Of a stretch of DNA of 64,000 nt, positions 15,635 through 46,483 are shown in pieces. A program made the translations under genes and the position numbers. The first letter of the stretch is position 1. Each line of letters begins with the position of its first letter. The notes under the pieces are model-generated. The model made no database searches, was not told where the DNA came from, and was given only the letters and a program-made list of their open reading frames with translations. This DNA comes from Meandrina meandrites. Its lineage: Eukaryota > Cnidaria > Anthozoa > Scleractinia > Meandrinidae. The stretch is from NCBI GenBank assembly GCA_963693305.1, contig OY855904.1:46635315-46699314 (forward strand). Direction: 5' to 3'.

Positions 15635-15745
15635 AGAGCATCAGAGGTTGAGAGAGATACATGTAACGTGCCTACCTCGCAGGAGAACATAAGCTCACCA
15701 TCAAATCAGGCTGTGGAACCGCAAGAGTAGCAGCAGCATCAATCA

Positions 15746-17302: not shown

Positions 17303-17612
17303 AGATAGGCTGCCAACAGACAGAACGTTGGGCATCACTTGGGATTCTCAGGAAGATGTGCTAAGGTTTACTGGGCTCAGTGGCGATCCAGGAACAACCA
17401 AGAGGAAGATCTTGAGCCAAGCATTCGCAGTGTGGGACCCACGAGGACTCCTCCTCCCTTTTTCAGTCAGAAGTAAAATCATCCTCCAGAATATGAACCG
17501 CATGAAGTACGGGTGAGATGACGAGCTGAAAGAATGTGATCTTCGAGAGTGGCGTGAATGGCACAAGGAAGCAAAGGAACTGGACGAAGTAAAGATTCCG
17601 AGAGCTCTCCTC
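17291..17612 (+). pseudogene. BEL/Pao Pol continuation after frameshift
   Basis: Homology to the RT connection region (DRLPTDRTLGITWDS, AVWDPRGLLLPFSVRSK) resumes in a different frame from the upstream RT. A TGA at 17514-17516 interrupts it, where a Trp codon is likely ancestral. The coding trace then continues to about 17612 and stops abruptly at a homopolymer hairpin. This is a decayed internal part of Pol. Confidence 0.8.
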
Positions 17613-18650: not shown

Positions 18651-19302
18651 AAGATTTAATCCGGCCAAAAAATGTTTTGGGGGTTATAGGCACTTTAAGG
18701 TGTATGGTTGTTTGTTCACTTGCTTGAGTACGAGAGCGTGTCACCTGGAATTGGTCGATGATCTTTCAACAGATCACTTCATTATGGCATTAAAGAAATT
18801 CATTGCACGGCGTGGAAGACCGCAGAATATCTACAGTGATAATGGCTCGAACTTTGTTGGGGCTGATAATGAACTGCGGAAGTGTATTAAGCAACTAGAT
18901 GAGAAGAGAGTACAAAACGTTTGTGCGCCTAAGGAAATTGAATGGAACTTTCAGCTGCCAAATGCTCCACACTTTGGGGGTGCATGGGAGAGATTGGTGC
19001 AGTGCACAAAGAAGATGCTGAAAGCAATACTGGCAAACAGGATCGTTTCCAAAGAAGTACTTAGAACTGCACTCGTCGAGGCAGAAGGGATACTGAACAG
19101 CCGACCGATTACTCATGTGTCCAACGATGCAGGAGACATTGACGCACTGACGCCAAATCACTTCCTGCTGATGCGGGCGAATCCGAGTTATGAAGATGCT
19201 GATGTCAGTGATAGAGAGATCAACTCGACAAAGCTGTGGCGACAGTCCCACTGGCCAACTTCTTCTGGAGACGTTTCACAAAGGAGTACCTTCCTAGCCT
19301 GA
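18646..19302 (+). pseudogene. BEL/Pao integrase core, truncated
   Basis: About 195 codons of integrase core are visible: CLFTCLSTRACHLELVDDLS, then SDNGSNFVGA carrying the second catalytic Asp, and PHFGGAWERLVQ carrying the Glu. The segment with the zinc-binding HHCC module and the first catalytic Asp is missing upstream. A frameshift near 19234 ends homology in this frame. The apparent ATG at 18646 is not an authentic start. Confidence 0.85.
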
Positions 19303-28100: not shown

Positions 28101-31100
28101 CAACGGTGCGACTGTCAGTGTCCAATCTTTCGTTCGCCACCTTAATAGCTGTGCTTGTTTTCCCCACGCCAGTAACACCATGTACGAGGACGCATCTGCA
28201 ATTGTGTGTTGGACAAAGGTATCTCTTTATGTCCTTGCATTCCTGGTAGCGACTGACAAAATGAGGAACTGTTTGGGGAAGGTGGGACAAATCTCTACAG
28301 GCTCCTATAACACAATTGTTATTTCAGTATTTAAATGATGTAGCTAAAACTCCATCTGGAAGGAGTCGCCAAATGAAAGGGGTTTCCTTATCAGCATCGG
28401 CAATGAAATACAGCAAACCCCCTTGGAGAAATAAAACCAGTTTTTTTATATATATATGATCAACAAGCGGACAAAATTGGAGTCTTGCTGCAGTCAGCAT
28501 GATCAATTCGAATGTTTTTGCAAAGCAAACTACTCCGTACTTATCCTACTTCATTTTAGTTCCTTTCAAAGTTTTTTTTCATTGTTTCTTAAGTAACCCC
28601 TTACGTAGATACAACGTAAATACAAAACATAGTCACTGTGAAATGAATCGAAATTGAACGTTGGCAAATGGCAAATGGTGTCCTCTAAATTTCAAAATAC
28701 CTGCAGGAGATTCCTCTATTGGTAACGGCACAGCAGCACCTGCGTGATGCGGATCTGTCAAATAATGTACACCATTCGTAAGTATTAAGCAGTATTTAAA
28801 TTACCACATCCACCCGTCCTCACAATGTTTTCTCGAATGTTTCCATCCTCCTAACCTCATATCTTCCCATTCTCTTGATGAATCAGATAAGAAGTGGACT
28901 CTGTTCCCTCAGGGAGGGAGGTTAGGAAAAGACCAGAGGCTAAGTTTAATATACCTGTTTCCTGTGTTGGCAATGAAGCAGTGTCACCCAATTTTTGTTG
29001 TGTTAAAGAACAATAAAACACTTGTAACTTTTTTTCATGAAGATGTTTTGTCGTTTTAACTAGAGTACCATTGTTTTTCTATCATTTTCAAATTCTCTGA
29101 TATTCCAATTTTTTTCTTCTCTCTGTCCTTTCACCCTGGCATTCTCCTTTCCTTTTATTCTTCAATACACCCATTCTCCCATCCTTTTTTACCTTCCCAT
29201 CTAACTGTTCTTCAATCCCCTCCTCCCCTTTTACTAAAATTAACAATCTTAGGGAAAGGGTTGACGTTCAACAATAATCCTTTTTCCTCTTGCCTGATAA
29301 TGAGATTGATAAAATACTTTATACCTGCACTAGCTCCCTGTGGTGGCGATAAAGCTGCGCCACCCACTTCCTGATCTGGCGATAAACATTAAACTCTCTT
29401 AAACACGACTGAATGACTAAGTCGTGAAGAAGTTTTGCTCTTACTATTATCCCATTCTTGGATTTCTTTCGTTCACCCATTACTTTCCCATATCCTCCCA
29501 CACTTTCATTTATTTTCATTCCCTCGTCCTCCAAAACCTATACCCCCTCATTCTCCATCCCTTCATCCTCCAATTCAACCCACTCTCCCCGTATTATCAT
29601 CCCCCATATTCCCGTCTTTCTGTCCTCCCATTTTCTTACCACCATTTCCCATAAATCCTCCAGTCCTCCCTTTATCCAAATCAAATTCCTCGGGTGAAGA
29701 AAAACCCCAGTCTCTATGTTAAAATAAAAGTTAGAAATACCTGGATTAGTTTCCTGTATTGGTAATGAAGCTGCGCCACCTCCATGGTAATCTATCAAAG
29801 AACGTGAAACACTCGTCAATACAATTGACTAAGTCGTGACGCATTTTTCTTGTTTTTCCAATTATTATCTTTCCAGAGACGTGTATAAAGAACAGATTGA
29901 CGGTTCAAACCACAGGAACTAAAAAAATATTTTTTCTCCTTTACGATGACACTCTGCAAATCGAAATGAAATCCAACCTTTAGTCCCTTTAGAACTGTCT
30001 TGGTTTTTAGCTCGTACTGTCACAAGACCGCACTCAAAGATATCACTGCATTACTCTGAATGATGTAATTTCATGTAGACAGTGGTGGCATTCAAGGATA
30101 TAAGAGCGGCCTTCCGTAAATATCGCCTAGAGGAGTGCAATTTGAAAAGAATCAAAAATTCTAAAACTTGGTCAGAATGTAGGTCTAGTGGAACTATTTA
30201 TAAAAAAATACTTTAAGTTCAATCAGATTTTTATTATACGCAAAAGGTGACGATGACGGTTTGATGGAAATACCGTTACACGAAATACCACTTGCATTTC
30301 GCGCTGTCAAATTTTGTTGTTTAAGTAGCCCAAAAATGCTATTGCATATATTGGAAGACGACATGTTGCTCTTTCGTTCAGATATATTTTTACAGCACCG
30401 GCTTATGTACCAAGTTGAGCTTTTTCTCTCAATTTTGCCATTTTTTGTTGTGCTGAAATCGGCAAAATAAGCCGAAAAATTAAAAATCTTGAAAATATTA
30501 TGTTTTGAGTCAAATTGTTTATTTAACATTTAAATTTTTAAGCAGTTTGTCTTCTTTTCAATTATGTATTATATGTTTGACTGTGCCATTTTGTTCATTT
30601 TTGGTAAATTTTTAAGTCATTGTTGTATAAACCCCTTGTGAAAGATTTCAAAAGGTCATCGTCGCCGATCGCGATGAAGAAAAATCTGATTGAACTTAAA
30701 GTATATTTTTATAAATAGTTTCACTAGACTTACATTCTAGCCAAGTTTGAGAATTTTAGATTTTTTTCAATTGCACTCCTCAAAGAGATACTTACGGAAG
30801 CCCGCTCATTTCGACATTACAGAAGAAGACGATGAGAATATCACCGCTTATTTTGCGCTCGGATATCCATAAAATAAATACCTTATGGTAATGCAAAACA
30901 CAAATAAAGTTGTTCAGCAGAATGTGCAAGATAAATGCCATTCGACTGTAATATTTTAGATATAGAGTAGCATGGCTTTGAGAGACCTAGCGCATTTCAT
31001 TTTTCTAATTTGATTTTATTGAATTTTTTTTCCTTTACATATTTTTCATATTTTTTTCCTTTAAAATATGTAAAGGAAAAATGACTTAAAGAATTAAATC

Positions 31101-34100
31101 ATTCAATATAATCAATGGAGAATCTCAAAGTAAAAGATTTGAAGGCTCTCGCCAAAGAGCGAGGCATCAAAGGGTATTACAGATTGCGTAAAGCGGAATT
31201 GATCCAAGCGTTAAATCAGGCGAGTGATTTGGTTGACCTCAGAGAGAACACAACAAATGATCAATCTATACCAGAGGTTAATATCCCTATTCCCGCACCA
31301 TCAAGATTAACACAGATAAAGAATCTTGTGGCAGCGCCCGTAAAGAGTGTAATGAACCCTAATCCTATTAAAAATGCTGTATATGAACTCATCGAAGCTT
31401 TGACAAAACCTATTAAACCTGAAGAAACGGTAAAAGAGATCACCAATGATAAGAGTGAAACTATCGAAGAGAGATCAACTATTAGTTGCAGTGATCCAAA
31501 TATAATACCATACAATGGATTTCCAAGATGCCCTCACGGAAAAGATAAACCTCAATGTAAAGAGTGTGGAGGGTGGAGGATCTGTACTCATGGTAAATTT
31601 AAACCTTACTGCAGAGATTGTAAAGGATCACAGATCTGCAGTCACGGAAAAAATAAACATCAATGCAGAGATTGTAAAGGATCACAGATCTGCACTCATA
31701 ATCGAGTTATCTATAGTTGTAAAGACTGTATGGGGTGTACACACGGAAGATTAAAAAAATATTGTAAAGAGTGTAAAGGCAGCAGAATCTGTGAGCATAA
31801 TCGAGTAAAGTACACATGTAAAGAGTGCGGAGGAAAAGGCATCTGTCAACACGGAAAGAATAAAAGATACTGTAAAGAGTGTAAAGGTAGCGGAATCTGC
31901 CCTCACGGAAAGAATAAACCTTGCAAAGATTGTCCTGAAAGAGAGATATGCCCTCACATTAAATATAAACGTTATTGCGAAGAGTGTAAAGAGTGTCCTC
32001 ACGGCATAGAAAAGTTTAAATGCGAAGAGTGTAACGCAACGCAGTAACGCTATAATTAAATATTCACAAGGCTGTTAACGTTAGTTTTCATAACGCGTAT
32101 CACGTTATGAATACAGGTCTAATATCTTATATTGTCTAAAAAATTCCTTTCATGCTTAAATTTATCTTAGCATGAAAGGAATTTGAAAACAATAGATTTT
32201 TTTTGTCGGGGTGATTGACAGTCACCGGAAAAGGCAGAGATTTGCATATCATCGAAAAATATACCAAGCTAATCCGCCAGCGACAATTGTCAATACCGCA
32301 AGATTAATCTCATGTTTTGTTGTGTCGGGCTTAGCCGGCGTCGGTTGATGTTTATCAGCAGATCTATGATCTGTAGCAGAATCGCTTGAGTCAGAGGGTT
32401 TATGTGACTCATTCTTAACCACCGGCTTATTTTTCACAACCGAAGTGTGAGGTAACGATACCTTACTCTTTCCGAGGTTATGTTTTATACCGACCGGCAC
32501 GCTCTTCGAATTAACATCTGTATTCACTCCCAATTTCATGGTCGGTTCAACACGTTTCAGTCTATTGTTATAACCTATTGTGCTCTCTGTATTGATCACC
32601 ATTTTTGATGGCATCAACCACGTACCGGGAGAGACGGCAAGATCAAGCTTAACTTTGGCCTCCTGTACAGCGAGTTGAAATCTCTGTACACTCTTACTTA
32701 TGTCCGGCTGTTTAATCGCATCCTCCAATAACACGAGAAACTCTCGACGAGCCTCCTGAGCACTTCCTATGTTTCCGAGAATACTGCTTCGAACGTTTAC
32801 CTGAGCACCCAATACACAGTAAACAAGCGCTTCAATCGATTGATTCAGTCTCGCCTGACCGGCGTTAGTCAATCCGTTAGATACCCTCGTGAGAAAGTAC
32901 TCATACTGATCTGCAGTCTCAGAATTTATAATCCATTGCAGAAGATTACCGTCCGATCCTTTACCTCCCTCATCACTGAACTTATAAAATCCCGGATACG
33001 GAGAGTCAATCTTATGAGGTCCGAGACCTGTGTACCAAATGTAAACAGATCCCAACCCGTGATTATCTCCTTTATGACAGCGAAAGTCAAGATCGGTCGG
33101 AACATTAAACTCTTTACAGATCCTCTTATAAGAAGGAATATCGTATCTGTTGTCCTTTTCATTAAAGGGAGTATCACCGGGAAGAGCAATCGAACTCTGT
33201 ATTCCCCCCATCTGAAACAGGATTCGTCTAATCGTAAAGTAAACGTGAAACCAGAGAACGGCTCGTATCTGCGGGGGAAGTTTGAGTTCATGGTCAGTCG
33301 CATCCATTCCCCCTATCTTCTCTTCTAACAGAAGACGCAGGCTTACACCACAACCTGTCGTCGCACACCAGACAGCAAAATTGAGCTGCTGTGGCCAATA
33401 CCGCATATTCGGTCAGTTCAACCACTCATGAGTCTCTTTTGCAGAGGTGTGTTTAATTACCGTATTTGTAAAGATGTCTCTGACGGGAACGGATAAAGAG
33501 TCTGTTGGCGTAGCGAAGATCTGAAGTTTACTCAGCTTCTCTCTCAAGTTAAGACCTCTTAGTGGTTGACTATCACCGAAATCGATCGCGGGAATCGGTA
33601 AATGGGGATGAGGATACAGTGTCAACTCCTGCGGAAAATCCATCGGAAGACCCAACGCTTTTTTCAACTCGTCGGAGAAGTACAGACTCGGTTGTAATCT
33701 TTTCTTAAAGAACATATCAAACTCTGAACCATCCCTTTCGATAAATCTTACAAAGGGTTCTTCATCATAACCATCGATACCGTGTTTAAATTTAGAAAGG
33801 TTGGCGTTGGGATAACGATCAAGAAATATATTCCACAGAGATTTGGGTTCGGGTTTATTATCATCTTTCTGATTGCTCATTTTTACTTATGTAGAATAAT
33901 ATTTTTAAACGAAGTAAGGATTATACGGCGGATCTCTGAGCGATTCATTCAGAGACTCATCTCTCGATAGCAGTATCATGCAATTACAACTTACTCTGAC
34001 TGGGCGAGTTTTTTTAACATCTCTGCACGAATATTTTCCTCCATCTTTTTTAAATCCACCTGCGGAGGTGGTGGAGGGGGAGGCTGATCTTTATTTTTTT

Positions 34101-40100: not shown

Positions 40101-43100
40101 ATACAAATATATTTTTAGTTTAGTAAAAATATATTTTACAATGAACGAAGTTCAGTACTTGATTGACTTTAAATCTTTGCTCATGATCTCCATCACCGCG
40201 TCAGCGACCACGAACATATGACAGGTGATGTTTCCCGATCCTCCGGTCTTTCTCTTGATCTCCAATTTGACACCGTCTTTTGTGTTGTTTACGCTCAGTC
40301 CTCCGCCATGAATACCGTTATCAGGAAAGGTTCTCAAATCAATCCAAAGACCGAACTTATCACCTGCGTAAAAATCCGTCTCTTTTACTGATCCCTTTGA
40401 ACCCATTCGTCTCTTAATGCATCTCCAGAAGTCAGACGGAATCATTCCCTTTGAGTAGAGTTGATTCGGCATACCATCGATATTGATGCTTACCGATTTG
40501 ATGTCTGGATTTACAAACTTCTCAGAGTCTCGTTTACCTCTGTCATAACTCTCTTCAAACAGTAAGAGTATACCCGTCATCGACCTCCTCGATATATTAA
40601 CATGCTCGTTAATCACACTATCATTCGGTTTTGAGATGGTAAAACTTTTGAGAAGCTGAACGTTCTCATAGTAAAATCCTTTACCCGTTTGGTAAGTTGC
40701 CATCGCCTCACGAGCCAATTGATCACTTTTGATGCAGTGGTACTCTAACTCAATGTTTTCAAGTTTATAATTCAGGGGTGTCTTTTTCTCTTCCGTTTTA
40801 TCATGATTTACGATTTCATTCACAGCCGGCAGTTGCAGCTCAAATGTAAGGTCATGATTAAGCACCCTCGGATACAGTGACCCGTTATCACTGAGAACAG
40901 GATGGTCGAGAGGAATTTCATGCTTTTTGTTGTGAATGGCCGCCATGGCGACCTCCTTTGTGTTAGAGGTGACTTTATCACCTGCGTCCGTTCTGAGTTT
41001 TCTCATATTCTCTGATGAGATTCCCTGTTTTAATCTGTCCTCTCTATCCTCAGTCTCAAGAAAGAGGTCATGGTAGGTTTGAAAGAGATCATATCTCACT
41101 GTATGCTGTAGTGTCTCACCTCCGAAAAGAACCTTGAGGTCTTTAACAAGGTTTCGACCAATATTATTTACGACGGTGTTGTTGGCATGACCGCTGACTA
41201 TCAGATCGAATATGAGTTTAACACTTCCCGGAACAATCACCACATCATCTGTCAATTTAGGTATTATCACTCGGATAAGATCTCCTGGATTATGAGATGA
41301 ACGATCGAATGTTATTCTGTTGATAGATGACTCTGCCTTAAGTCCGAACGGTTCTCTCGGTACTCGGTTCGGATTAATCTTCTCGGATACTGTAAGTGAC
41401 ATTTTAAAAGAGAGAGATGTTATTTTTAAATGAGTAATCTTTCAAAAATATACTACAGCACAGAGGGTTATTTGAAAGGATACTCCGCTGTATCGAAGTT
41501 GGCTTCCGCGGCCAAAGTCAGTGAGGATGAGGTGAGATATTGGTTAGAGAGACAGGCACTTTGGCAGATCTATCTTCCTCCGCCGAAGTATTTACCGAGA
41601 CCTCATTGGACTGTTGATAAACCGAATGAGATTCACCAAGCGGATCTTCTCTTTCTTCCACATGACAGGGTGGGAAGAAAGACTTATAGATATGCGTTGG
41701 TTGTGATCGATGTTGCAACGAGATATAAAGATGCTGAGGCGTTAACATCGAAAGAGAGTCAAGAGGTAGCGAAGGCCTTTGAGAGTATTTATAAAAGAAA
41801 GCTCCGGTGGCCAAAGACATTGATTGTCGATCCCGGTAAAGAGTTTATGGGTCATTTAACAAAGTTGATGGATAGACATAACGTAAAGATACAGAGAAGC
41901 GAAGCGGGTAACCATCGAGCTCAGGCCTTCGTTGAGAGAGCGAACAGGACTTTGGGAGAGAGATTATTCTCTCATCAGTATGCGCAAGAGATGGTGAGTG
42001 AAGGGAGATCAAGAGTCTGGGTGAAGAGGTTGCCAGCGGTCATGAAGGCCTTAAACTCTGAGGTGATCAAAATCACAGGTAAAGAGCCTGAGAAAGCCCT
42101 CGGTTTAAAAGAGGTTGAGATTAGAGAAGTAAGTTACAAAAGACCTGTCGGATTAAAGGAGAAGAGATTGCCTCCGGGTGTTCAGGTAAGGTATCTTCTC
42201 TCTCCCGGAGAGGATGAGGGAGGAGAGAGAAGAAGAGCGACTGATCCTATCTGGAGTATCGAGGTTTATAATATAACTCGTGTGGTGATCTCTCCCGATC
42301 AGCCTGTGTTATATTATCTTCTCGATGGACCGAAGAGATCGTTTGTGAGGGAAGAGCTTCAAGTTGTACCGTTTGACACTGAGTTACCGCCCTTATAACC
42401 GTAAGCGAAGGTATGAATGTTATCCTCCCGTATTAATCTCTTATCATCGAACGGAGAGAGAGCAATTTTGTTAACCGTCTCGGTATACATGGTGTGTAGA
42501 TGACTTCTTATGACATTCATCTTTCTCATAGCGGGTTTATTATTAAACAAACAGTCTTTGTAATCGTTAAAACTTATAGTCTTCTTTATCACCGCCTTCT
42601 TGACACCCTTACACTTCTTCTCCTCGTAAGACTCCTCTACTCTGTATGAGTAGAGTTTTGCCCTCAGGCCGACAAACTCTGCGATCTGCTTCCCTGAGGC
42701 CTCGTCTTTGAACATGCCGATGACCTTCTTGTTAACACCTGTGAGAATACCGCTTGGGTGATTCTTCGGGTAATTACTCGTGTCGAATCTTAATTCTATA
42801 TCGGAAGAGATGTCTCTGTAAAAATCTTCTGTCTCTATCTCATAGGCGAGGCTATCCGTGTCTGTAAAGAGTAATTTAGCGCTATCTCCGTACTTGGGTT
42901 TGATGTAATTATAGTGAAAATCGTACATCAAGGTCTTACTCAAGTCAAGGATTGACATGCCGAGGTAGACGGGTTTATTAAAGTATAACTTTACCTTCTT
43001 CATATGAACGGCAGCGAGATTCTTAGAGAAGATTGTGTGATGTTGATAGTTGGGTTTACATGTCAACTTCTTTGCCTGGCTCTCTCGAGTTACCAATCTT

Positions 43101-46100
43101 ATGTCTACTCTGTTTCTGATGTTCTCCATAGTCTTACCGAATACGGAGTTATTCATCAACTTGAAAAAGTCTTTCTCAAAATCGTTCTGTGCCTTCGCTC
43201 TGAGATCGGTGTTAAGATCGATATACGGCTTTAGCCAAGCACACTCTGTGAATGTGATCCCTCTATGAATCTTGGTGAGTTTTAATCCGAGAGAGAGATA
43301 GAGTTTAAGAGTTTCGTGATGAATAACGTACTTGGTCTTGTTGTTTAGATTGGGGATCAGTTTCTCAACCTTATTCACGGTGAGTCTCTCCGGCGCTAAC
43401 GGATAGTCGTTATGCAGGTCGTGAAGTTTTTCAGGATACTCCAAGTCTACCTCAAGTATGCAGGGCATACTCTCCCAATTCTTCAACTCCTCTTTAGACA
43501 TAAATCTGAAACAGTCAGTCGGCAGAGGTTTACACATTGCCCAACCGTAGAGATTGTTTGCGTCTAGATAAGATATGTACTTGGTCGGTTGATCGGGATC
43601 ATAATCTTTCATATAAGGGTTGTTTGCCTTTCCATATCTTGTAGAGATCATTGAGACTCCCCCTCGAATACCTTTCTCAACCATCATTAAAATGTCGTAA
43701 TCGGTTAATAACTCCAGTCTGACCTTTGTAATCTTTAAACATGCATCCCAAGCAAGACCGGGCGCTGTGTAATAGAATGCAGGATCGAGACGGTAATTAT
43801 CAAGGCAAACATCTCTGAAGTTTTCAAAGACATCGGAGAGAAGAAGAACATCACTCTTGAGATAGAGGTTATGGTAATCCCTCACGGTCTTCATGTCAAA
43901 TACATCCCAAACCTTCTGTGCGTGTATGTAATCCTCTTCTGAGATTCCGCTGTCATTAAGTATTGAGTGAAAAGCCTCTTTAGGTGGAAGGTGATCGGCA
44001 GAGAGTTTATTAAAGTTATCAAACCAATCGTAGGGAAAGACACCCTTTCTTTTGATAAGGTCTAACTCATCACCTTGATAAAATTCTGTAAGATTTTTAA
44101 AAGAGTCTTTTGTAAGATTCTTTACCAAGTTATCGAGGCTAGCCGCCATGAATTTGAAAGAGTCTATGAATCTTAATTCACGCATAACCACTTTCTCTTT
44201 TCCCTCTTTATTAATGAATCTGTCAACAATGATATGCTTGGTAAATGAGATATACTTCTCCTCGTTGTTGGGAATGCAGTCTATATATCCCTCTGATTTA
44301 CCGAGGTTTTTGATGAAGAGATGACTGTCGTAACCGGAGAGATTGTGAAAGATGACAGGATAGAACTTGGGTAGTCTGTATTTTAAATTACACATGCTAT
44401 GGGCAGCGCCTCTAAACTTTCCGGTGAGATGACAGTGATCGCGAACCTTTTTAAATCTTGGATCATCACACACTTTGGGTATACCGCTCTCACAGATGTG
44501 GCAGATATTTGCCTTTTTATAGTTGATCTTATCTTCTTTTGTCATCACCATCTTCTTTGGTTTTTTAAACTTATTATAGATCTCCTTGATATCTTCCTCC
44601 AAAGACTCTATGAATAACAGAGGGATGTCTTCGTCAGGAGATTCGGCTGTGTACTGTCTAAGGTGGGGTGCGAGAATGTTATCATCGAAGCATTTGATGA
44701 GATAACTGAAACCTGATGGTCTGTGCTTTTGGTATCTGTTTGTGAAGCTTTTACCGTCATCCGGTTGGCATGTGTCAATCTTCTCTGTGAAACATTCAAA
44801 ATCAGCATAAACAACAAAGGGAACTCGCTGCTTTCGATAATAATTCTTAAATAAGATATATCTTGGTCCTAAGAATTTTCCTTCGTCATCTTTAAACATT
44901 GGCATCTCTATCTTGACAGCCTTGTTATTCTGGCAGTACTCTTTATGTTTATCCAGTGATTTCTCTGAGTGAAACGAGTTTAAGCATCTGTAGCAGAAAT
45001 GTATCTTACCATTATGATTACTTTTCTGCTTGGATAACAGTCTCGACATGTTCTTGATCCAACAGAAGTGATTGGTCTCTTTGTTTGCGATAAGGAGAAG
45101 GTTTATCACCTGTTCACAATGCTGCTCATTCTTTTTGCTTATTCTCAGAGGGTAAACAACACCTTCATAACCGAATACATTGATTGCGTAATTGTTCTGC
45201 TTTTCAAACTTATCTATCTGTTTAAGTGATACGGGAAACTCGATACCTGTCCAGTCAAACTTCTCTGAATCTTTTTTCATCTGTTTGCTGAGTCTATCAC
45301 CATCTCTCTCTGCAGGAAACACTGCTGAGGTTACTGCCCACTTAAAACACTCATTATCTTTTTCATTCTTAACGTTGATGATCGCCTTCTTATCTGCCAA
45401 CTTTTTAGGTAAGGGAATGTAAGATGAAGCAGACAGAGGATTGTAAGGGTTAATGTTGATGTCAAGGTGTTCTACTCGGTCAAATTGCCAACCGGAACCT
45501 CTGTTATGAAAATTCTGTATCAATTCAAAGATTCGACTCGTCATCGTATTATATAAGTCAGAGAGATCGGTTGCCTCTGTTATTATTACCGGGTCTGTGG
45601 GAAAGTACCATATATTTATGTCAATGTTGCCAGTGGCAGGATTCTCTTTGGTAAACCTTACGGTGAGAATTAACTTGACTGTTATAGATTCCTTACTCTT
45701 TATGAGATCTATAACCTTCGGTTTTACACTATTAATAAATGTCTTTTCATCCATACCGTCTACTCCATCCACTCTGAATGTTTTAAAATAACCCTTTATG
45801 GCTGTCTTGTGCTCTTTGGGTGTGAGGTTATCATACCTCTTAAATATACGGTTCACTCTCTCTTTTAGACTGTTAACTCTTTCATTAACAGTCTTTTTAA
45901 TCGGTTCGGGGACTTGAGATATTATCCAGTCTGCAAACTTGTTTATCTCTCTCTTTACCGGCTTTGCAGCCTTAGAGGCAAGATTCTTTAGTTGTGATAC
46001 TTTAGAGGTATTTTCAGGTTTTGACGGTTCGAGGATAGGGATATCAATCTCAGGTATGGATTGATCGATTATGTTTTGAGGTATGGGAGGATTTTTAGGT

Positions 46101-46483
46101 TGTGTAGGATCACTCACCTGATTCAACGCGTTCATCAATTCCGCTTTACGCAATCTGTAATACCCTTTGATGCCTCGCTCTTTGGCGAGAGCCTTCAAAT
46201 CTTTTACTTTGAGATTCTCCATTGATTATATTGAATGATTTAATTCTTTAAGTCATTTTTCCTTTACATATTTTAAAGGAAAAAAATATGAAAAATATGT
46301 AAAGGAAAAAAAATTCAATAAAATCAAATTAGAAAAATGAAATGCGCTAGGTCTCTCAAAGCCATGCTACTTATAGTATTTATTACTTATTATTTGTTAC
46401 CAGAACAAAAGTAAATTTCAAATACCTCTTTGTCCCGCAGGAATTGGAATAGGTGAACTACCAACTCTCTCGTTTTTAGCCAT
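25059..46483 (-). CDS. STAND (NB-ARC-like) NTPase with TPR repeats, multi-exon gene
   Basis: I reconstruct a seven-exon gene: 46426-46483, 29741-29791, 29325-29375, 28701-28754, 26601-28304, 25671-26025 and 25059-25122. All introns have GT-AG ends. Exon phases agree throughout (phase 1 up to exon 6, phase 2 before exon 7), and the sum is 2337 nt, or 778 residues plus stop. Residues 1-72 are a short repeated Gly/Pro-rich leader. About 95-330 is a P-loop STAND module: Walker A GVTGVGKT at 114-121, Walker B LLLDN at 187-191, KLLVTSS at 240-246 and GIPL at 296-299. A helical region and C-terminal tetratricopeptide repeats follow (YNNYYALGEYDNAKRYSEEA-like). The architecture resembles cnidarian NLR-type sensors, so a role in innate sensing or scaffold assembly is inferred, not shown. 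Intron 1 contains the whole Polinton-like element. A further degenerate mini-exon at 28955-28992 is excluded. Confidence 0.75.
25671..26025 (-). CDS. STAND/TPR gene, TPR exon
   Basis: 355 nt with acceptor TTTTTCCAG and donor CG|GTAAAT. It encodes two to three tetratricopeptide repeats of the kinesin-light-chain type (LNNLSNNYYALGEYDNAKRY, LFDLGMVHKERKEFRQARDC). Open throughout in the phase dictated by the large exon. Confidence 0.85.
26077..26175. repeat. Intronic inverted repeat
   Basis: AAGAAAAACGACCAATTTTTT (26077-26097, split by one base at the end) pairs with AAATTGGTCGTTTTTCTT ending at 26175 around a ~55-nt loop. It lies in the STAND gene intron between the large exon and the TPR exon. 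Confidence 0.8.
26601..28304 (-). CDS. STAND/TPR gene, large NTPase exon
   Basis: 1704 nt. The 5' end is an acceptor TTATAG followed by GAGCC; the 3' end is a consensus donor, GGCAG|GTGAGT at 26601/26600. The P-loop NTPase (Walker A GVTGVGKTST, Walker B TILLLDN) lies near the start. A winged-helix-like and helical region follows, and the first TPR motif (CLAKHGRCLAKEGKFREGRD) lies near the end. No ATG opens this exon; the frame continues upstream through the acceptor, so the exon is internal. Reading beyond the donor gives only 12 more codons before a stop. Confidence 0.9.
28701..28754 (-). CDS. STAND gene mini-exon (54 nt)
   Basis: Acceptor TTTGACAG, donor CTGCAG|GTATTTT, symmetric phase 1-1. 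It encodes a peptide ending AAVPLPIEESPA, similar to the two other intact mini-exons. Inclusion or skipping would preserve the frame. Confidence 0.7.
28955..28992 (-). pseudogene. Degenerate STAND gene mini-exon
   Basis: It retains GDTASLPTQET-like coding similarity to its neighbours and a donor ACAG|GTATAT, but there is no AG acceptor at the expected upstream position. Probably a dead copy of the tandem mini-exon. Confidence 0.6.
29325..29375 (-). CDS. STAND gene mini-exon (51 nt)
   Basis: Acceptor TATCGCCAG, donor TGCAG|GTATAAA, phase 1-1, encoding GGAALSPPQGASA preceded by DQEV. Paralogous to the mini-exons at 29741 and 28701. Confidence 0.7.
29741..29791 (-). CDS. STAND gene mini-exon (51 nt), first after the long intron
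   Basis: Acceptor TTTGATAG, donor ATCCAG|GTATTT, phase 1-1, encoding GGGAASLPIQETNP. It is the exon immediately downstream of the 16.6-kb intron that contains the Polinton-like element. Confidence 0.7.
30104..30808. mobile_element. Foldback element with ~150-bp inverted arms
   Basis: Arms at about 30104-30255 and 30655-30808 are complementary with scattered mismatches (shared GAGCGG, CTTCCGTAA, GAGGAGTGCAAT, ACTATTTATAAA, AAGTTCAATCAGATTTTT). They enclose ~400 bp without a gene. It is a non-autonomous element lying in the same intron, 158 bp left of the Polinton-like element. Confidence 0.8.
30961..30965. repeat. Target-site duplication, left (TATAG)
   Basis: TATAG directly abuts the left terminal inverted repeat and recurs at 46372-46376 directly after the right one. 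A 6-bp match, usual for Polintons, is not found; the visible duplication is 5 bp. Confidence 0.85.
30966..31203 (+). repeat. Left terminal inverted repeat (238 bp)
   Basis: Base-for-base complement of 46134-46371. It contains a CTTAAAG box (31084-31090), the ATG at 31115 and the first 29 codons of the SAP/zinc-repeat gene. After 31203 the two ends diverge, but the encoded peptides remain similar for another ~10 residues. Confidence 0.97.
31115..32047 (+). CDS. SAP-like / Cys-His zinc-repeat protein of the element
   Basis: 310 residues. Residues 1-35 (MENLKVKDLKALAKERGIKG and onward) have the helix-extension-helix look of a SAP DNA-binding motif and are identical to the polymerase N-terminus because both lie in the TIR. 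Residues 40-138 are a variable linker containing DQSIPEVNIPIP, again echoed in the polymerase. Residues ~139-306 hold ten copies of a short Cys/His unit of the form C-x-H-G-x5-x-C-x2-C, with consensus ICxHGKxKxxCKxCKGS. Related repeats occur in predicted proteins of algae and large DNA viruses; their function is not established. A role in binding element ends or nucleic acid is inferred. It is convergent with the gene at 32249. Confidence 0.85.
   Translation: MENLKVKDLKALAKERGIKGYYRLRKAELIQALNQASDLVDLRENTTNDQSIPEVNIPIPAPSRLTQIKNLVAAPVKSVMNPNPIKNAVYELIEALTKPIKPEETVKEITNDKSETIEERSTISCSDPNIIPYNGFPRCPHGKDKPQCKECGGWRICTHGKFKPYCRDCKGSQICSHGKNKHQCRDCKGSQICTHNRVIYSCKDCMGCTHGRLKKYCKECKGSRICEHNRVKYTCKECGGKGICQHGKNKRYCKECKGSGICPHGKNKPCKDCPEREICPHIKYKRYCEECKECPHGIEKFKCEECNATQ
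32088..32184. terminator. Two hairpins between convergent element genes
   Basis: TCATAACG (32088-32095) pairs with CGTTATGA (32103-32110). AAATTCCTTTCATGCT (32141-32156) pairs perfectly with 32169-32184 across a 12-nt loop. They sit in the only sizeable convergent intergenic gap (32048-32248). A shared transcription-end or mRNA 3'-end signal is inferred. Confidence 0.6.
32249..33406 (-). CDS. Element structural-type protein with C-terminal membrane anchor
   Basis: 385 residues. It begins MRYWPQQLNFAVWCATTGCG. The first ~270 residues look globular and the segment at ~315-366 is Ser/Lys/Pro-rich and disordered. The last ~19 residues (INLAVLTIVAGGLAWYIFR) form a membrane anchor, giving a tail-anchored topology. 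I recognise it only as a protein type associated with cnidarian Polinton-like elements; it could be a minor capsid or membrane-vertex protein, which is inference. It starts 6 bp after the stop of the upstream gene and is the only gene in the element without a TTTAAAG-type box at the usual distance. It may therefore be co-transcribed with 33413-33880. Confidence 0.8.
   Translation of the reverse strand: MRYWPQQLNFAVWCATTGCGVSLRLLLEEKIGGMDATDHELKLPPQIRAVLWFHVYFTIRRILFQMGGIQSSIALPGDTPFNEKDNRYDIPSYKRICKEFNVPTDLDFRCHKGDNHGLGSVYIWYTGLGPHKIDSPYPGFYKFSDEGGKGSDGNLLQWIINSETADQYEYFLTRVSNGLTNAGQARLNQSIEALVYCVLGAQVNVRSSILGNIGSAQEARREFLVLLEDAIKQPDISKSVQRFQLAVQEAKVKLDLAVSPGTWLMPSKMVINTESTIGYNNRLKRVEPTMKLGVNTDVNSKSVPVGIKHNLGKSKVSLPHTSVVKNKPVVKNESHKPSDSSDSATDHRSADKHQPTPAKPDTTKHEINLAVLTIVAGGLAWYIFR
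33413..33880 (-). CDS. Element protein of unknown function (155 aa)
   Basis: Soluble, no membrane segment. It has aromatic and proline-rich stretches (YPHPHLPIPAIDFGD) in the middle. A TTTAAAA box lies 22 nt before the ATG. It directly precedes the tail-anchored gene at 33406, suggesting a two-gene transcript and perhaps a shared virion role. No family recognised. Confidence 0.75.
   Translation of the reverse strand: MSNQKDDNKPEPKSLWNIFLDRYPNANLSKFKHGIDGYDEEPFVRFIERDGSEFDMFFKKRLQPSLYFSDELKKALGLPMDFPQELTLYPHPHLPIPAIDFGDSQPLRGLNLREKLSKLQIFATPTDSLSVPVRDIFTNTVIKHTSAKETHEWLN
33991..34596 (-). CDS. Element membrane protein with Gly/Ala-rich hairpin (201 aa)
   Basis: Residues ~1-60 are charged and helical. 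Residues ~61-105 form one long or two close hydrophobic Gly/Ala/Val-rich segments (ALCGGGLGTGLTGVGIPVSV and onward). Residues ~108-168 are helical, followed by a proline run (PPPPPPP) and a short amphipathic C-terminal helix. The architecture suggests a helical-hairpin membrane protein. Its ATG abuts the stop of the preceding gene (34597) with no spacer, and its CTTAAAA box lies inside the end of that gene, 20 nt before the ATG. Function unknown. Confidence 0.8.
   Translation of the reverse strand: MESYKEIYPQLPTEVTGDNFRLKQCSDWLSLLEKDLHDCEKVYKKYKRARSYLFNLSTGSGTLSVALCGGGLGTGLTGVGIPVSVALGAVGAVCALTSVATASLAKIISKKVSKHEKTVSVCQAKINTVKDIVSKALTDNKISHEEFLLVKSEFEKYYEMKRSIREKNKDQPPPPPPPQVDLKKMEENIRAEMLKKLAQSE
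34597..35511 (-). CDS. Element membrane protein with acidic head and coiled coil (304 aa)
   Basis: Residues 1-65 are strongly acidic (DPGDDDDEGE) and Pro/Asp/Asn-rich. Residues ~130-195 form a highly charged coiled coil (EREISRRREKITTLESSRKE). Hydrophobic segments follow at ~208-228, a Gly/Lys-rich stretch at ~235-270 (SGLSRLGKGVGNGFKAIGKK) and a second membrane segment at ~275-292, with a basic tail. The Gly/Lys amphipathic region resembles membrane-active peptides of small non-enveloped viruses; that comparison is inference. The TTTAAAG box lies 26 nt before the ATG. Confidence 0.8.
   Translation of the reverse strand: MEVDPTETDRDNPFEPVDPGDDDDEGEMIPMTSTSNRDRGFDNPNYDETSFIDDDNTSLMQREENRDEAWERVKRKYPKVNPVKSSFTAALDKFDRVVVRLKRQGGKAYTLFKSDGEPNDKLPKTIKESLGPTAEEVIEGNEREISRRREKITTLESSRKEVREDQRENIDHDIDLQREEIENLERDNEAIEERMSLRDRVKAIFKKYGFTAFAVLSAVGAVIGVIVSNLKSGLSRLGKGVGNGFKAIGKKLGEILPGMIGAIASFIFKTAGEAIGFLAKNAWLLIVAVVVYFVEQLKNNQKRK
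35546..35956 (-). CDS. Element small membrane protein (136 aa)
   Basis: I choose the ATG at 35956 over an upstream one at 36076. It gives MATIALMIGGAVLNATAFVG, a clean N-terminal hydrophobic segment, and an ATTAAAG box lies 20 nt upstream; the longer version would run into the preceding gene. The middle is charged and helical (RIRHDKALEKYQRDYAAYQE), with a conserved-looking LSDYYRPSDDQ. A C-terminal hydrophobic segment (~115-133) follows. I recognise it as a recurrent companion of cnidarian Polinton-like elements; function unknown. Confidence 0.8.
   Translation of the reverse strand: MATIALMIGGAVLNATAFVGGSYLAKYLSGSNTDTERIRHDKALEKYQRDYAAYQEKRQRLLDWYNQQRDEEHQASQNLSNTDEAFKLYSQTHPDYSLQEPRLSDYYRPSDDQRVGEMAYVGGGMLALGYVASRLF
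36004..36219 (-). CDS. Stand-alone copy of the fibre protein N-terminal module (71 aa)
   Basis: Two hydrophobic segments (~12-30 and ~47-62). It is clearly paralogous to residues 1-63 of the fibre-like protein at 36569-37567: both share DASVLIG, NDPS-S, KWVA-LSGS and YLKDY. The CTTAAAG box lies 20 nt before the ATG. Probably arose by duplication within the element. It may anchor, or compete for, the same site as the fibre base. Confidence 0.8.
   Translation of the reverse strand: MSENKLVKTVTDASVLIGLSAGVGYIAKKAIKESFINDPSSSIVNYGKWVAVLSGSMYLKDYLEKQKILPS
36232..36306. repeat. GTAAAC / ACAATGCTGTTTAC repeat cluster, copy A
   Basis: CACAATGCTGTTTAC occurs twice and ACGAAAGTTT twice, overlapping the stop of the gene at 36299. 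The same motif set reappears at 38090-38127 at the 3' end of another gene. It may mark transcript ends. Confidence 0.6.
36299..36547 (-). CDS. Element single-pass membrane protein with Cys pairs (82 aa)
   Basis: Residues ~4-22 are a membrane segment. Two CxC pairs (C28/C30 and C41/C43) in ENCACG and GMCECG form a possible metal site or disulphide knot, and a charged C-terminal helix follows. The ATTAAAG box lies 19 nt before the ATG. Function unknown. Confidence 0.75.
   Translation of the reverse strand: MWRTVIVSFLTAILLEVVIYLMLPKENCACGVRIPEGGGMCECGEYNGRMTIKIDGKDELREKELKRIEDEKRKENSYDTVL
36569..37567 (-). CDS. Fibre-like protein with membrane module and phage-tail-type repeats
   Basis: 332 residues. 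Residues 1-63 are a two-segment hydrophobic module duplicated in the 71-aa protein. Residues ~64-97 are linker. Residues ~98-160 contain two repeats of the type found in trimeric phage tail fibres (RIINLANPVGDKDAVNKSYA, then KTGDKMTGDLDMSGNEIKNI followed by a second YVN). Residues ~161-176 form a short helix. Residues ~177-332 are a beta-rich head that could be a TNF/C1q-like or other jelly-roll receptor-binding domain (NPGVYSISLIDGL, TYNFISVIDIYENTKLSIQT). A trimeric attachment spike is the best inference. The TTTAAAG box lies 19 nt before the ATG. Confidence 0.8.
   Translation of the reverse strand: MSKEKIFKIIYDASVLIGISSGFGYFVNMNDPSTSVIDYLKWVAILSGSIYLKDYMQREEILKKIDSLNSKKDTTLGAIASKNLNSKKAKNLDLKSKRIINLANPVGDKDAVNKSYADNKVSKTGDKMTGDLDMSGNEIKNIKEATSSDATFAANVNYVNRTVESIIRREITKMGKYVDETVKKVFYKGYLKHNNDSFIRFFANGTESHTRYTRQSDPSDFIVNDNDEEKIIIKNPGVYSISLIDGLKTSGDDDNGTVQFILNPAPFLKLSDNINITVPNSSKGFKTYNFISVIDIYENTKLSIQTSDARTVFDGLGSGYKKFGMILINKID
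37625..38035 (-). CDS. Element basic single-pass membrane protein (136 aa)
   Basis: Residues ~17-55 are Lys/Glu-rich (KDPKKVAAGKKLAEYNKRAK) and could contact nucleic acid. A membrane segment spans ~78-98 (ISFTTAISLVGIGLTALNMF), followed by a Pro-rich tail. The TTTAAAG box lies 20 nt before the ATG. Recognised only as a recurring partner in such elements; a link between DNA core and membrane is inferred. Confidence 0.78.
   Translation of the reverse strand: MSEEVEQITKTPAVENVKTKEKDPKKVAAGKKLAEYNKRAKEALKEKIKREAEKATEPEERETGESALTAEGWIPEISFTTAISLVGIGLTALNMFMSYRKDTKVLSRDKSLSEPPLTEPPPAIASKIPVPKMGML
38058..38084. repeat. 10-bp-stem hairpin at 3' end of the 38121 gene
   Basis: TTAAATCAAC pairs with GTTGATTTAA across 7 nt. 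It lies just beyond the stop of the gene at 38121-38405 and overlaps the TTTAAAG box of the next gene (37625-38035), so one element could end one transcript and start the next. Confidence 0.6.
38090..38127. repeat. GTAAAC / ACAATGCTGTTTAC repeat cluster, copy B
   Basis: GAGAGTTTACACAATGCTGT and a second GAGAGTTTAC at the 3' end of the gene at 38121. It matches the cluster at 36232-36306. Confidence 0.6.
38121..38405 (-). CDS. Element small protein (94 aa)
   Basis: A compact soluble protein with TIRFRHEDLSGGDDLIAFTM and FKRIANAFGKGRGVTINMSK. The pattern recurs in Polinton-like elements, sometimes fused to membrane segments, and is separate here. Acidic, Phe-rich C-terminus (DEDDFFFSPL). The TTTAAAG box lies 20 nt before the ATG. 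Minor virion protein by inference only. Confidence 0.75.
   Translation of the reverse strand: MSKEKVRYVDHRVNISEEQREKFCSAIDNSEAVTIRFRHEDLSGGDDLIAFTMQQFKRIANAFGKGRGVTINMSKDQVQKHEIIDEDDFFFSPL
38462..38848 (-). CDS. PD-(D/E)xK-like endonuclease (128 aa)
   Basis: A short nuclease-like protein. LELDGYN (residues 39-45), AFEYDGAQH (57-65), an Asp at 78 and Lys residues at 85-89, and GVLLIRIPHYI (~97-107) match the pattern of Vsr/PD-(D/E)xK-type nucleases found in several large DNA viruses and polintons. The acidic pair around D42/E59/D61 and the QH motif are the likely metal-binding and catalytic residues. A role in replication or resolution of genome intermediates is inferred. The CTTAAAG box lies 21 nt before the ATG. 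The C-terminal codons lie in a GTTAAGCTTAAC palindrome. Confidence 0.8.
   Translation of the reverse strand: MSFGVYEEKCRKIFQELFKKEFRTVRPDWLKNPWTYQNLELDGYNPDVVTPLGKGLAFEYDGAQHSRFTPCFHSCAGDFEYQVMKDSLKEEILRDEGVLLIRIPHYIPYWDLKPFIIGRLVIEGVKLN
38465..38476. repeat. 12-bp palindrome GTTAAGCTTAAC, copy 1
   Basis: Perfect palindrome within the last codons of the nuclease gene, repeated at 38876-38887 just after the 3' end of the next gene. Confidence 0.75.
38876..38887. repeat. 12-bp palindrome GTTAAGCTTAAC, copy 2
   Basis: It lies 4 bp beyond the stop of the gene at 38892 and overlaps the start of the CTTAAAG box of the nuclease gene. A dual end/start signal is possible. Confidence 0.75.
38892..39404 (-). 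CDS. Element helical protein of unknown function (170 aa)
   Basis: Acidic N-terminus (EEQTDDDDLETKRE), central helical region (LGDIKKLSSKDLKKYFNRYK), then Ala/Val-rich helices (~85-150) that could be membrane-associated. It ends in a tandemly repeated ENFKENE motif encoded by a 21-bp DNA repeat. The TTTAAAG box lies 24 nt before the ATG. It directly follows the packaging ATPase in transcription direction. Recurrent in related elements; role unknown. Confidence 0.75.
   Translation of the reverse strand: MANVEDYIDEVQPEKIEEQTDDDDLETKRESLAILASLGSTEEFLSKAMSLGDIKKLSSKDLKKYFNRYKTVMGKKVSTGLVESAISAASVLISYVIPVDDVEALRDDLKNDDLVKRELSNFAGLLVLKGGRLVALASGLFKVAKHVKLRPSEENFKENEENFKENEENE
39456..40076 (-). CDS. 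A32/FtsK-HerA-type packaging ATPase
   Basis: 206 residues, typical for Polinton and virophage genome-packaging ATPases. Walker A GPTNCGKT is at 16-23, Walker B TLLILDDC at 93-100, and a sensor/motif III region SVWVLTQQLTSI at 126-137. Family members translocate DNA into preformed capsids using ATP. It stands between the capsid gene and the small structural genes, as in many Polintons. Its promoter box, TATAAAAG, is the most TATA-like of the set and lies 19 nt before the ATG. Confidence 0.92.
   Translation of the reverse strand: MKELRDKIPFHMIITGPTNCGKTKYLIEQLRGPFRKVFEYIVLICPTYAKNRTYHGFARGDKRFFVLSPDASNSDEIDSLLTDVSLLFSGTNTLLILDDCAVSKDLKQRSNKFIDLAFSGRHDGLSVWVLTQQLTSIAKPFRENVACVVAFHNPSQVGMKTLFEDYGGDLDIETKRVLCRMLKEERYSRLCLCLRYPFECYLEIPV
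40152..41402 (-). CDS. Probable major capsid protein (double jelly-roll type)
   Basis: 416 residues. It starts near RVPREPFGLKAESSINRITF and contains beta-rich blocks throughout (GDLIRVIIPKLTDDVVIVPG, RNLVKDLKVLFGGETLQHTV, LIFDLIVSGHANN, KLEIKRKTGGSGNITCHMFV). It has no catalytic signature. Its position beside the ATPase and integrase and its size fit a capsid protein; 416 residues is short for a double jelly roll, so a smaller variant or another structural protein is possible. The TTTAAAA box lies 21 nt before the ATG, in a 27-bp gap shared with the divergent integrase gene. Confidence 0.72.
   Translation of the reverse strand: MSLTVSEKINPNRVPREPFGLKAESSINRITFDRSSHNPGDLIRVIIPKLTDDVVIVPGSVKLIFDLIVSGHANNTVVNNIGRNLVKDLKVLFGGETLQHTVRYDLFQTYHDLFLETEDREDRLKQGISSENMRKLRTDAGDKVTSNTKEVAMAAIHNKKHEIPLDHPVLSDNGSLYPRVLNHDLTFELQLPAVNEIVNHDKTEEKKTPLNYKLENIELEYHCIKSDQLAREAMATYQTGKGFYYENVQLLKSFTISKPNDSVINEHVNISRRSMTGILLLFEESYDRGKRDSEKFVNPDIKSVSINIDGMPNQLYSKGMIPSDFWRCIKRRMGSKGSVKETDFYAGDKFGLWIDLRTFPDNGIHGGGLSVNNTKDGVKLEIKRKTGGSGNITCHMFVVADAVMEIMSKDLKSIKY
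41403..41429. promoter_or_regulatory. 27-bp divergent promoter between capsid and integrase genes
   Basis: The gap has a TTTAAAA box on each strand: TTTTAAAAGAGAGAGATG reads into the integrase (box to ATG 20 nt), and the opposite strand, starting in the integrase ATG context, reads into the capsid gene (21 nt). Each box overlaps the other gene's start region, so the two genes probably share one compact control element. Confidence 0.7.
41430..42398 (+). CDS. Retroviral-type DDE integrase
   Basis: 322 residues. The N-terminal ~55 residues resemble a helix-turn-helix (SKLASAAKVSEDEVRYWLER). The rve core carries D72 (HQADLLFL), D134 (IVDPGKEF) and E169 (AFVERANRTL), with 34 residues between D134 and E169. 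The C-terminal region (~225-320) is beta-rich (YNITRVVISPDQPVLYYLLD) and probably an SH3/chromo-like DNA-binding domain. It would insert the linear element via its TIR ends and make the 5-bp TATAG duplication. It overlaps the end of the convergent polymerase gene by 40 bp. Confidence 0.95.
   Translation: MSNLSKIYYSTEGYLKGYSAVSKLASAAKVSEDEVRYWLERQALWQIYLPPPKYLPRPHWTVDKPNEIHQADLLFLPHDRVGRKTYRYALVVIDVATRYKDAEALTSKESQEVAKAFESIYKRKLRWPKTLIVDPGKEFMGHLTKLMDRHNVKIQRSEAGNHRAQAFVERANRTLGERLFSHQYAQEMVSEGRSRVWVKRLPAVMKALNSEVIKITGKEPEKALGLKEVEIREVSYKRPVGLKEKRLPPGVQVRYLLSPGEDEGGERRRATDPIWSIEVYNITRVVISPDQPVLYYLLDGPKRSFVREELQVVPFDTELPPL
42359..46222 (-). CDS. polB: Protein-primed family-B DNA polymerase with SAP-like N-terminus
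   Basis: 1287 residues. SAP-like motif at 1-35, encoded in the TIR. A conserved N-terminal domain at ~130-400 carries a Cys in NECFKW (~291) and a His in HFCWIKN (~384), a possible cysteine-protease-like pair (inference). C2H2-type finger at 409-429 and an HNH/endonuclease-VII-like zinc cluster at 573-610 (CHIC, RDHCHLTGKFRGAAH). Exo I YADFECF 471-477, Exo II HNLSGYDSH 625-633, Exo III YLKSDVLLLSD 786-796. Polymerase motif A YLDANNLYGWAM 884-895, motif B KLMNNSVFGKTMEN 1020-1033, motif C FTDTDSL 1118-1124. All catalytic Asp residues are present. It replicates linear DNA from its ends, probably using a protein primer. The CTTAAAG box lies 23 nt before the ATG. Confidence 0.96.
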   Translation of the reverse strand: MENLKVKDLKALAKERGIKGYYRLRKAELMNALNQVSDPTQPKNPPIPQNIIDQSIPEIDIPILEPSKPENTSKVSQLKNLASKAAKPVKREINKFADWIISQVPEPIKKTVNERVNSLKERVNRIFKRYDNLTPKEHKTAIKGYFKTFRVDGVDGMDEKTFINSVKPKVIDLIKSKESITVKLILTVRFTKENPATGNIDINIWYFPTDPVIITEATDLSDLYNTMTSRIFELIQNFHNRGSGWQFDRVEHLDININPYNPLSASSYIPLPKKLADKKAIINVKNEKDNECFKWAVTSAVFPAERDGDRLSKQMKKDSEKFDWTGIEFPVSLKQIDKFEKQNNYAINVFGYEGVVYPLRISKKNEQHCEQVINLLLIANKETNHFCWIKNMSRLLSKQKSNHNGKIHFCYRCLNSFHSEKSLDKHKEYCQNNKAVKIEMPMFKDDEGKFLGPRYILFKNYYRKQRVPFVVYADFECFTEKIDTCQPDDGKSFTNRYQKHRPSGFSYLIKCFDDNILAPHLRQYTAESPDEDIPLLFIESLEEDIKEIYNKFKKPKKMVMTKEDKINYKKANICHICESGIPKVCDDPRFKKVRDHCHLTGKFRGAAHSMCNLKYRLPKFYPVIFHNLSGYDSHLFIKNLGKSEGYIDCIPNNEEKYISFTKHIIVDRFINKEGKEKVVMRELRFIDSFKFMAASLDNLVKNLTKDSFKNLTEFYQGDELDLIKRKGVFPYDWFDNFNKLSADHLPPKEAFHSILNDSGISEEDYIHAQKVWDVFDMKTVRDYHNLYLKSDVLLLSDVFENFRDVCLDNYRLDPAFYYTAPGLAWDACLKITKVRLELLTDYDILMMVEKGIRGGVSMISTRYGKANNPYMKDYDPDQPTKYISYLDANNLYGWAMCKPLPTDCFRFMSKEELKNWESMPCILEVDLEYPEKLHDLHNDYPLAPERLTVNKVEKLIPNLNNKTKYVIHHETLKLYLSLGLKLTKIHRGITFTECAWLKPYIDLNTDLRAKAQNDFEKDFFKLMNNSVFGKTMENIRNRVDIRLVTRESQAKKLTCKPNYQHHTIFSKNLAAVHMKKVKLYFNKPVYLGMSILDLSKTLMYDFHYNYIKPKYGDSAKLLFTDTDSLAYEIETEDFYRDISSDIELRFDTSNYPKNHPSGILTGVNKKVIGMFKDEASGKQIAEFVGLRAKLYSYRVEESYEEKKCKGVKKAVIKKTISFNDYKDCLFNNKPAMRKMNVIRSHLHTMYTETVNKIALSPFDDKRLIREDNIHTFAYGYKGGNSVSNGTT
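46134..46371 (-). repeat. Right terminal inverted repeat (238 bp)
   Basis: Perfect complement of 30966-31203. It contains the promoter box and first 29 codons of polB. Confidence 0.97.
46372..46376. repeat. Target-site duplication, right (TATAG)
   Basis: Matches 30961-30965. Confidence 0.85.
46426..46483 (-). CDS. STAND/TPR gene, first coding exon
   Basis: ATG at 46483 followed by 18 more codons (MAKNERVGSSPIPIPAGQR) and a donor AGAG|GTATTT in phase 1, the same phase and donor style as the mini-exons at 28.7-29.8 kb. The peptide resembles their GGAASLPIQE pattern. It lies 55 bp outside the right end of the Polinton-like element, on the side opposite the rest of the gene. This is the evidence that the element sits in intron 1. 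Confidence 0.65.

Follow-up and report, generated by a model that had tools for sequence, protein, structure and literature searches.

Is the Polinton-like element found in a stony coral genome a virus, and is it intact? The question is raised by a 64,000-nucleotide stretch of the Meandrina meandrites assembly GCA_963693305.1 (contig OY855904.1, positions 46,635,315 to 46,699,314; hereafter the window), in which a preliminary description had recognized a complete, apparently undamaged element with 17 open reading frames (ORFs). In our analysis the element is very likely a recently integrated double-stranded DNA provirus of the Polinton/meldvirus type that sits in this anthozoan genome and has become defective in one conserved gene. 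The reading is drawn from matched terminal inverted repeats (TIRs), a 5-bp target site duplication (TSD), the gene content, the predicted fold of the capsid protein, a gene split by a stop codon, relatives that are diverged and constrained, and signs of mosaicism.

Ends of the element

The element spans positions 30966-46371 of the window (15,406 bp) and is complete at both ends. The left TIR (30966..31203, forward strand) and the right TIR (46134..46371, reverse strand) are identical at 238 of 238 positions, a match far above chance; the first mismatches fall at positions 239 and 240, and similarity continues to 263 nt at 98%. The left arm begins AGTAG, AGT-type ends being a Maverick/Polinton feature. 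The flanking TATAG duplication is exact on both sides (30961..30965 and 46372..46376). Both the perfect TIRs and the precise duplication claimed in the preliminary description are thereby confirmed. The 6-bp TSD expected of Maverick/Polinton elements was not found, the duplication being 5 bp in the window and in all nine other copies with both ends located.

Copies were sought throughout the 551-Mb assembly of 56 contigs. Among the best 40 of 420 TIR matches, 32 form 16 inverted pairs 14.8-16.8 kb apart, window included, when the list is paired by eye; of the other eight, four fall in two longer pairs and four are single. When ten other copies were sampled at their expected ends, nine yielded both, all with AGTAG...CTACT termini and 5-bp duplications, while one end piece of the tenth gave no TIR match. 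Identity between a copy's own two TIRs was 100% in three of the nine, 98.9-99.6% in five and 93.3% in one (local alignments, one of which overran into the flank). Near-perfect TIRs are thus common in the family and mark a recent insertion rather than a special copy. The recent insertion proposed earlier for the window element accordingly stands: its ends are complete, its TSD is exact and near-identity of own TIRs is usual among its relatives.

A conserved gene split by a stop codon

The 17 ORFs correspond to 16 genes. Two of the ORFs, of 155 aa (33413..33880, reverse strand) and 385 aa (32249..33406, reverse strand, with a C-terminal hydrophobic stretch), lie in one frame and, when aligned to seven relatives, prove to be the consecutive N- and C-terminal parts of a single protein of about 541 aa. 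Relatives of the 385-aa ORF are mostly 514-555 aa long among the best 120 of 2,982 matches. Of the best 80 of 835 candidates in the coral's own genome, the window copy alone is interrupted, by a single internal TGA, and the other 79 have none; these are the best-scoring rows, window included, and are biased to open frames. When 20 copies were fetched, the gene was present in 19 and the junction was open in all 19, one of which is broken further on; the twentieth piece lacked the gene. Either the stop is private to the window within the scored set, or that base was misassembled. The preliminary description had concluded from 17 open frames that the element is intact, a conclusion that fails because one conserved gene is cut by a stop.

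A module encoded in the terminal repeats

The least expected feature of the element is that its TIRs encode protein. The start codons of the leftmost gene (31115..32047, forward strand) and of the polymerase gene, PolB (42359..46222, reverse strand), lie inside the TIRs, so that both proteins open with the same Rho_N module, encoded on the left from TIR position 150. Pfam recognizes Rho_N in both proteins (E 1.4e-8 in the left one). Beyond it, the left protein (a310) consists of a Cys/His-repeat array (CxH..CxxC; 31 Cys). In nine other copies, a pattern search recovered the Rho_N ORF at both ends in seven, at one end in one and at neither in one; a looser inspection of the last revealed a start. 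The Rho_N alleles at the two ends are the same or nearly the same in most sampled copies. Across 36 TIR pairs, drawn from nine of ten TIRs (the tenth was dropped for want of a recognized start), the first 90 coding nucleotides had a median identity of 84% and the upstream part 54%, coding exceeding upstream in 36 of 36 pairs. The module thus appears to have been kept while the rest of the TIR drifted fast. The shared module probably allows PolB and the Cys/His-repeat protein to bind nucleic acid, perhaps at the ends of the element. No paper describing a TIR-encoded shared Rho_N/SAP-type module in Polintons was found in a narrow search made largely without subscription literature. In one relative, P0301, a TIR-type Rho_N module is fused to the major capsid protein (MCP), perhaps as a deletion product.

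Replication, packaging and virion proteins

PolB, a putative protein-primed polymerase of 1287 aa, carries the family B motifs DTDS and KxxxNNSVFG, found by regular expression, and an endonuclease VII-like zinc motif (residues 561-613), found by profile. For the OTU-like domain of adintovirus polymerases, a regular expression gave only candidate His and Cys residues in its N-terminus. PolB is full length in eight of ten sampled copies and split in two. The integrase (41430..42398, forward strand) matches the Pfam rve profile (PF00665, E 3.3e-8) with a score of 34.1 bits, the cut-off being 32.6; rve alone was returned at E <= 1, with no Pfam match for the C-terminal chromodomain of adintovirus integrases. 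The packaging ATPase (39456..40076, reverse strand) is of the A32 type (Pfam Pox_A32, PF04665, E 7.9e-12), with Walker A (GPTNCGKT) and Walker B motifs. Of the catalytic residues credited to these proteins in the preliminary description, the PolB and Walker motifs are borne out, as are the rve and Pox_A32 domains; the integrase D-D-E was obtained with a loose regular expression only.

The MCP (40152..41402, reverse strand) matches a Pfam capsid N-domain below that profile's cut-off. Its predicted model is a double jelly-roll with capsids of giant-virus type at the top of the fold ranking, structurally nearer to pox- and megavirus than to adenovirus capsids; a hexon-type capsid was rejected on its lower rank. 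A search of a phage collection with the MCP (tblastn) gave no match, and sequence searches of the PDB with the MCP, PolB, the 385-aa ORF and an alignment of the latter returned nothing or one chance-level row.

The fibre-like protein (g332; 36569..37567, reverse strand) contains a phage tail-fibre shaft motif. It has eight PHROG matches (E 7e-6 to 0.02), the best to a head-decoration family and the other seven to tail fibres; its profile gave only weak PDB matches, to a bacterial grappling-hook protein (E 0.013), to T7-type fibres (E 0.033-0.11) and to SMARCB-type chains. The C-terminal head gives the impression of a beta-rich, C1q/TNF-like domain. Among ten sampled copies the fibre is short in two (318 and 324 aa), long in five (554-558 aa) and split in three, the long form having an additional middle stretch of about 200 residues. 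A small protein of 71 aa encoded nearby (s71; 36004..36219, reverse strand) has counterparts of the same length in all ten, 50-52% identical to the fibre N-terminus; it is possibly a duplicated fibre anchor.

Neither a penton nor a protease was recognized. No element protein matched a single jelly-roll minor capsid protein in Pfam or PHROG, and for an adenovirus-type cysteine protease Pfam and a narrow adenain-like H..C regular expression were both negative, a search that a divergent or fused protease might escape. Cysteine is absent from six of the 16 ORFs examined. For the 541-aa family, the AlphaFold model of the relative P0005 (541 aa) has a pLDDT of 37.9, too poor to decide whether it is the penton. 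The absence noted in the preliminary description thus holds within these profile and pattern searches. Two other candidates for the penton, h136 and k170, were thought unlikely, both being helical-looking by eye.

Number, divergence and mosaicism of the copies

Scoring covered the best 100 of 798 candidates for the MCP, window included; all matched and 96 were free of stops. The relatives nearest to the window were 91% identical in the TIR (best 40 of 420) and 88% in the MCP (best 100 of 798). Median synonymous divergence (dS) and the ratio of nonsynonymous to synonymous divergence (dN/dS) were 0.50 and 0.15 for PolB (window and eight of ten fetched copies), 0.24 and 0.35 for the MCP (26 of 28 pairs kept, from eight loci including the window), and 0.44 and 0.22 for the 541-aa family (ORFs of at least 500 aa, in 12 of 20 fetched copies). 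Set beside the near-identity of each copy's own TIRs, these values suggest that most of the divergence is older than the insertions and arose under constraint. Two MCP genes, C14:15996456 and C14:15999170, lie 2.7 kb apart on one strand and probably belong to a rearranged or nested element. Elsewhere, an MCP cluster of 4,980 member sequences (P0334) suggests a still larger expansion.

Different parts of the window element have different nearest relatives. The copy at C4:35.5 Mb shares 95.7% identity with it in the split gene and just 75% in the MCP, among the lowest values in the best 100 of 798; six more copies have 76-78% in the MCP and 90-93% in the split gene (one of them over 154 residues only). 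Conversely, the copy with the best MCP match (C14:16.0 Mb; 88%, best 100 of 798) has 86.7% in the split gene, and among the 20 copies with the best-ranked MCPs, 19 of which carry that gene, none exceeds 89.4% there. Split-gene identity was measured over the first 300 residues that the window itself encodes in the 385-aa part. Forty copies were tested (20 best by MCP, 17 drawn from both lists and three chosen for low MCP identity) and 36 were kept, one lacking the gene and three giving short alignments. Over these 36 the two identities correlate negatively (Spearman -0.47), a sign that is unreliable in a non-random set, so that the contrasts between single copies carry the weight. The lineage nearest to the window element in the MCP is thus not the one nearest in the split gene, and the element would most simply be a mosaic that arose through exchange between lineages.

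Weighing of alternative explanations

The best reading of copies so many, diverged and mosaic yet constrained is that they were inserted repeatedly from a pool that replicates and recombines. By analogy with the relatives named here, such a virus would replicate its linear DNA from the TIR ends by means of a PolB carrying its own priming domain; the rve integrase would insert the AGT-ended DNA through cuts staggered by 5 bp; the double jelly-roll protein and the A32 ATPase would build and fill an icosahedral particle, perhaps containing a membrane; and the fibre would attach the particle to cells. Strongly hydrophobic stretches in six of the 16 ORFs, on a simple hydrophobicity scale, make a particle with a membrane plausible. 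The element might instead be a self-synthesizing transposon that amplifies only in the host germ line, its capsid genes kept by linkage or for intracellular particles without cell-to-cell infection. Integrase, TIRs and TSD would suffice for transposition, several hundred candidate copies share one genome, and groups of copies with near-equal scores (best 100 of 798 MCP matches) look like local bursts. Nevertheless, most of the scored genes for the MCP and the 541-aa family are open, and those sampled are constrained, although the fibre is split in three of ten copies; moreover, neither the TIR nor the MCP of the window has a close sibling among those scored, the next best being 91% and 88%, unlike the product of a recent burst. 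Mosaicism is compatible with either view. On balance a purely germ-line transposon seems rather unlikely, without being far-fetched.

It is improbable that the split gene owes its stop to a fault of assembly or base calling and that the element is intact. A single in-frame stop among otherwise open frames, known from the assembly sequence alone, would fit such an error, and its absence from every other scored copy (best 80 of 835) is as compatible with a private mutation as with an error. Still less credible is an old, co-opted element whose TIRs were homogenized by gene conversion. In principle, inverted repeats can undergo such conversion, and in most sampled copies the Rho_N alleles of the two ends are identical or almost so; however, the TSD is exact, the TIRs match to the very end, eight of the nine other copies also have own-TIR identities of at least 98.9%, and the disrupted gene speaks against co-option of the whole element.

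Several observations weigh against a recently integrated and now defective provirus. The relatives P0095 and P0112 (373 and 374 aa; among the best 120 of 2,982) start at the internal methionine with which the 385-aa ORF also opens; these are either split genes or the outcome of gene calling, and the C-terminal-only form, not being unique to the window, may keep some function. PolB has no Pfam DNA polymerase B match at E <= 1, so that its identity rests on motifs, and in the ranking of viral folds an adintovirus protein bearing the label penton comes 17th. Searches of viral_contigs with the MCP, the MCP alignment, the alignment of the 541-aa family and a part of PolB gave no confirmed relative that would point to a free virus. 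The near-identity of own TIRs could be maintained by gene conversion. Finally, the scored lists comprise the best 100 of 798 (MCP), 80 of 835 (split gene) and 40 of 420 (TIR) candidates, and the dN/dS sets consist of open frames from best-scoring copies, which favours an appearance of constraint.

Remaining genes and genomic setting

The other genes of the element all lie on the reverse strand. Those with no assigned function are d201 (33991..34596; one hydrophobic stretch), e304 (34597..35511; two hydrophobic stretches, cysteine-free), h136 (37625..38035; charged, with one hydrophobic segment by eye), i94 (38121..38405; counterparts of 115-117 aa in eight of ten sampled copies) and k170 (38892..39404; conserved, one hydrophobic stretch). 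The f136 gene (35546..35956) encodes a protein with a hydrophobic start and a weak Rz-like spanin match (PHROG, E 1.1e-4); the ORF of the window is 176 aa long, and in nine of ten sampled copies the ORF starts at what is residue 41 there. The small f82 (36299..36547) has an N-terminal hydrophobic stretch. The nuclease-like j128 (38462..38848; PHROG 559, E 1.5e-5), present in eight of ten sampled copies, has what we take to be a PD-(D/E)XK-like look.

Just left of the insertion, at 30142-30770, a 123-nt inverted repeat (85%) with a 383-nt spacer may be a small foldback element. A 574-aa ORF nearby (26566-28290, reverse strand) has NB-ARC/NACHT-type NTPase matches and is perhaps an NLR-like immunity gene. 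Further off, ORFs at 14144-19302 (forward strand) match DUF1759, aspartyl protease, reverse transcriptase and rve; presumably they are an interrupted long terminal repeat retrotransposon of the Pao/BEL type. The assembly also gave 69 matches to the GFP domain, against none in 14 control genomes, and in the PDB one of the exons comes closest to amFP486, a sea anemone protein; this points to a probable hexacoral host.

Relation to known elements

Vertebrate Maverick/Polinton elements (PMC8097293) share with the window element PolB, rve integrase, ATPase, double jelly-roll MCP, a length of about 15 kb and TIRs starting with AGT, whereas here the TSD is 5 bp rather than 6, no protease or minor capsid protein was recognized and the capsid fold is nearest to giant viruses. 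Vertebrate genomes are reported to hold at most 38 intact Mavericks each (PMC8097293), against hundreds of candidates here, a comparison that is only suggestive as the latter were counted without regard to intactness of the whole element. Terminal-protein and OTU-like domains have been described in such polymerases (PMC11071308). Meldviruses, in which an adintovirus-like PolB and rve integrase are joined to pox- or megavirus-like virion proteins (PMC11071296), include chimeras such as Meld23486 that likewise combine Polinton-type replication genes with a giant-virus-like capsid, a likeness seen in their description; a TIR-encoded Rho_N module and a Cys/His array go unmentioned in the portion of that paper available. 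Polinton-like viruses (PLVs) are sometimes flanked by 5-6 bp duplications and may carry bacteriophage-like fibres (PMC12220804). Phage-like fibre parts are thus shared, but those PLVs have protist hosts and often large modular fibres, while the fibres here measure 318-558 aa with an optional middle domain.

Bellas et al. 2023 (PMC10120064) found that, of all metazoan MCPs, those of cnidarians alone fell outside the main Maverick-Polinton cluster; we liken them to the present family by host group, fold and gene content not being given in the portion available. Mavericks make up 5.20%, 6.74% and 1.41% of three Caribbean stony coral genomes (PMC12005156), figures that are RepeatMasker totals without element anatomy. 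The cnidarian outliers (PMC10120064), the meldvirus chimeras (PMC11071296) and the coral Maverick load (PMC12005156) are thus already in print. A literature search, largely without subscription sources, found no paper on a cnidarian element joining a Polinton integrase to a Nucleocytoviricota MCP. The suggestion in the preliminary description of a lineage distinct from canonical Polintons and adintoviruses gains from the giant-virus-type capsid fold and loses from the fact that such chimeras and cnidarian outliers have been published. What is distinctive here, and worth describing, is the 5-bp TSD, the giant-virus-type capsid fold, the unrecognized penton and protease, the fibre with its optional middle and the TIR-encoded module.

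It seems conceivable, though we would put this forward only tentatively, that the TIRs are themselves genes: the two ends would code for one and the same short nucleic-acid-binding module, which replication would place on the polymerase as well as on a zinc-repeat regulator and keep matched to the end in which it lies, and the host would hold hundreds of recently inserted lineages, recombining with one another, of an animal virus whose shell is of giant-virus type, derived from a pool still in circulation. From the shared module comes a simple and testable proposal for how an origin might stay matched to the protein that replicates from it. The combination of Polinton-type replication genes with a giant-virus-type capsid in an animal may help to place the published cnidarian capsid outliers. 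If the reading as a recently integrated provirus is true, a single animal genome holds enough open, diverged copies to ask whether animal Polintons still spread as viruses, a question that has long been open.
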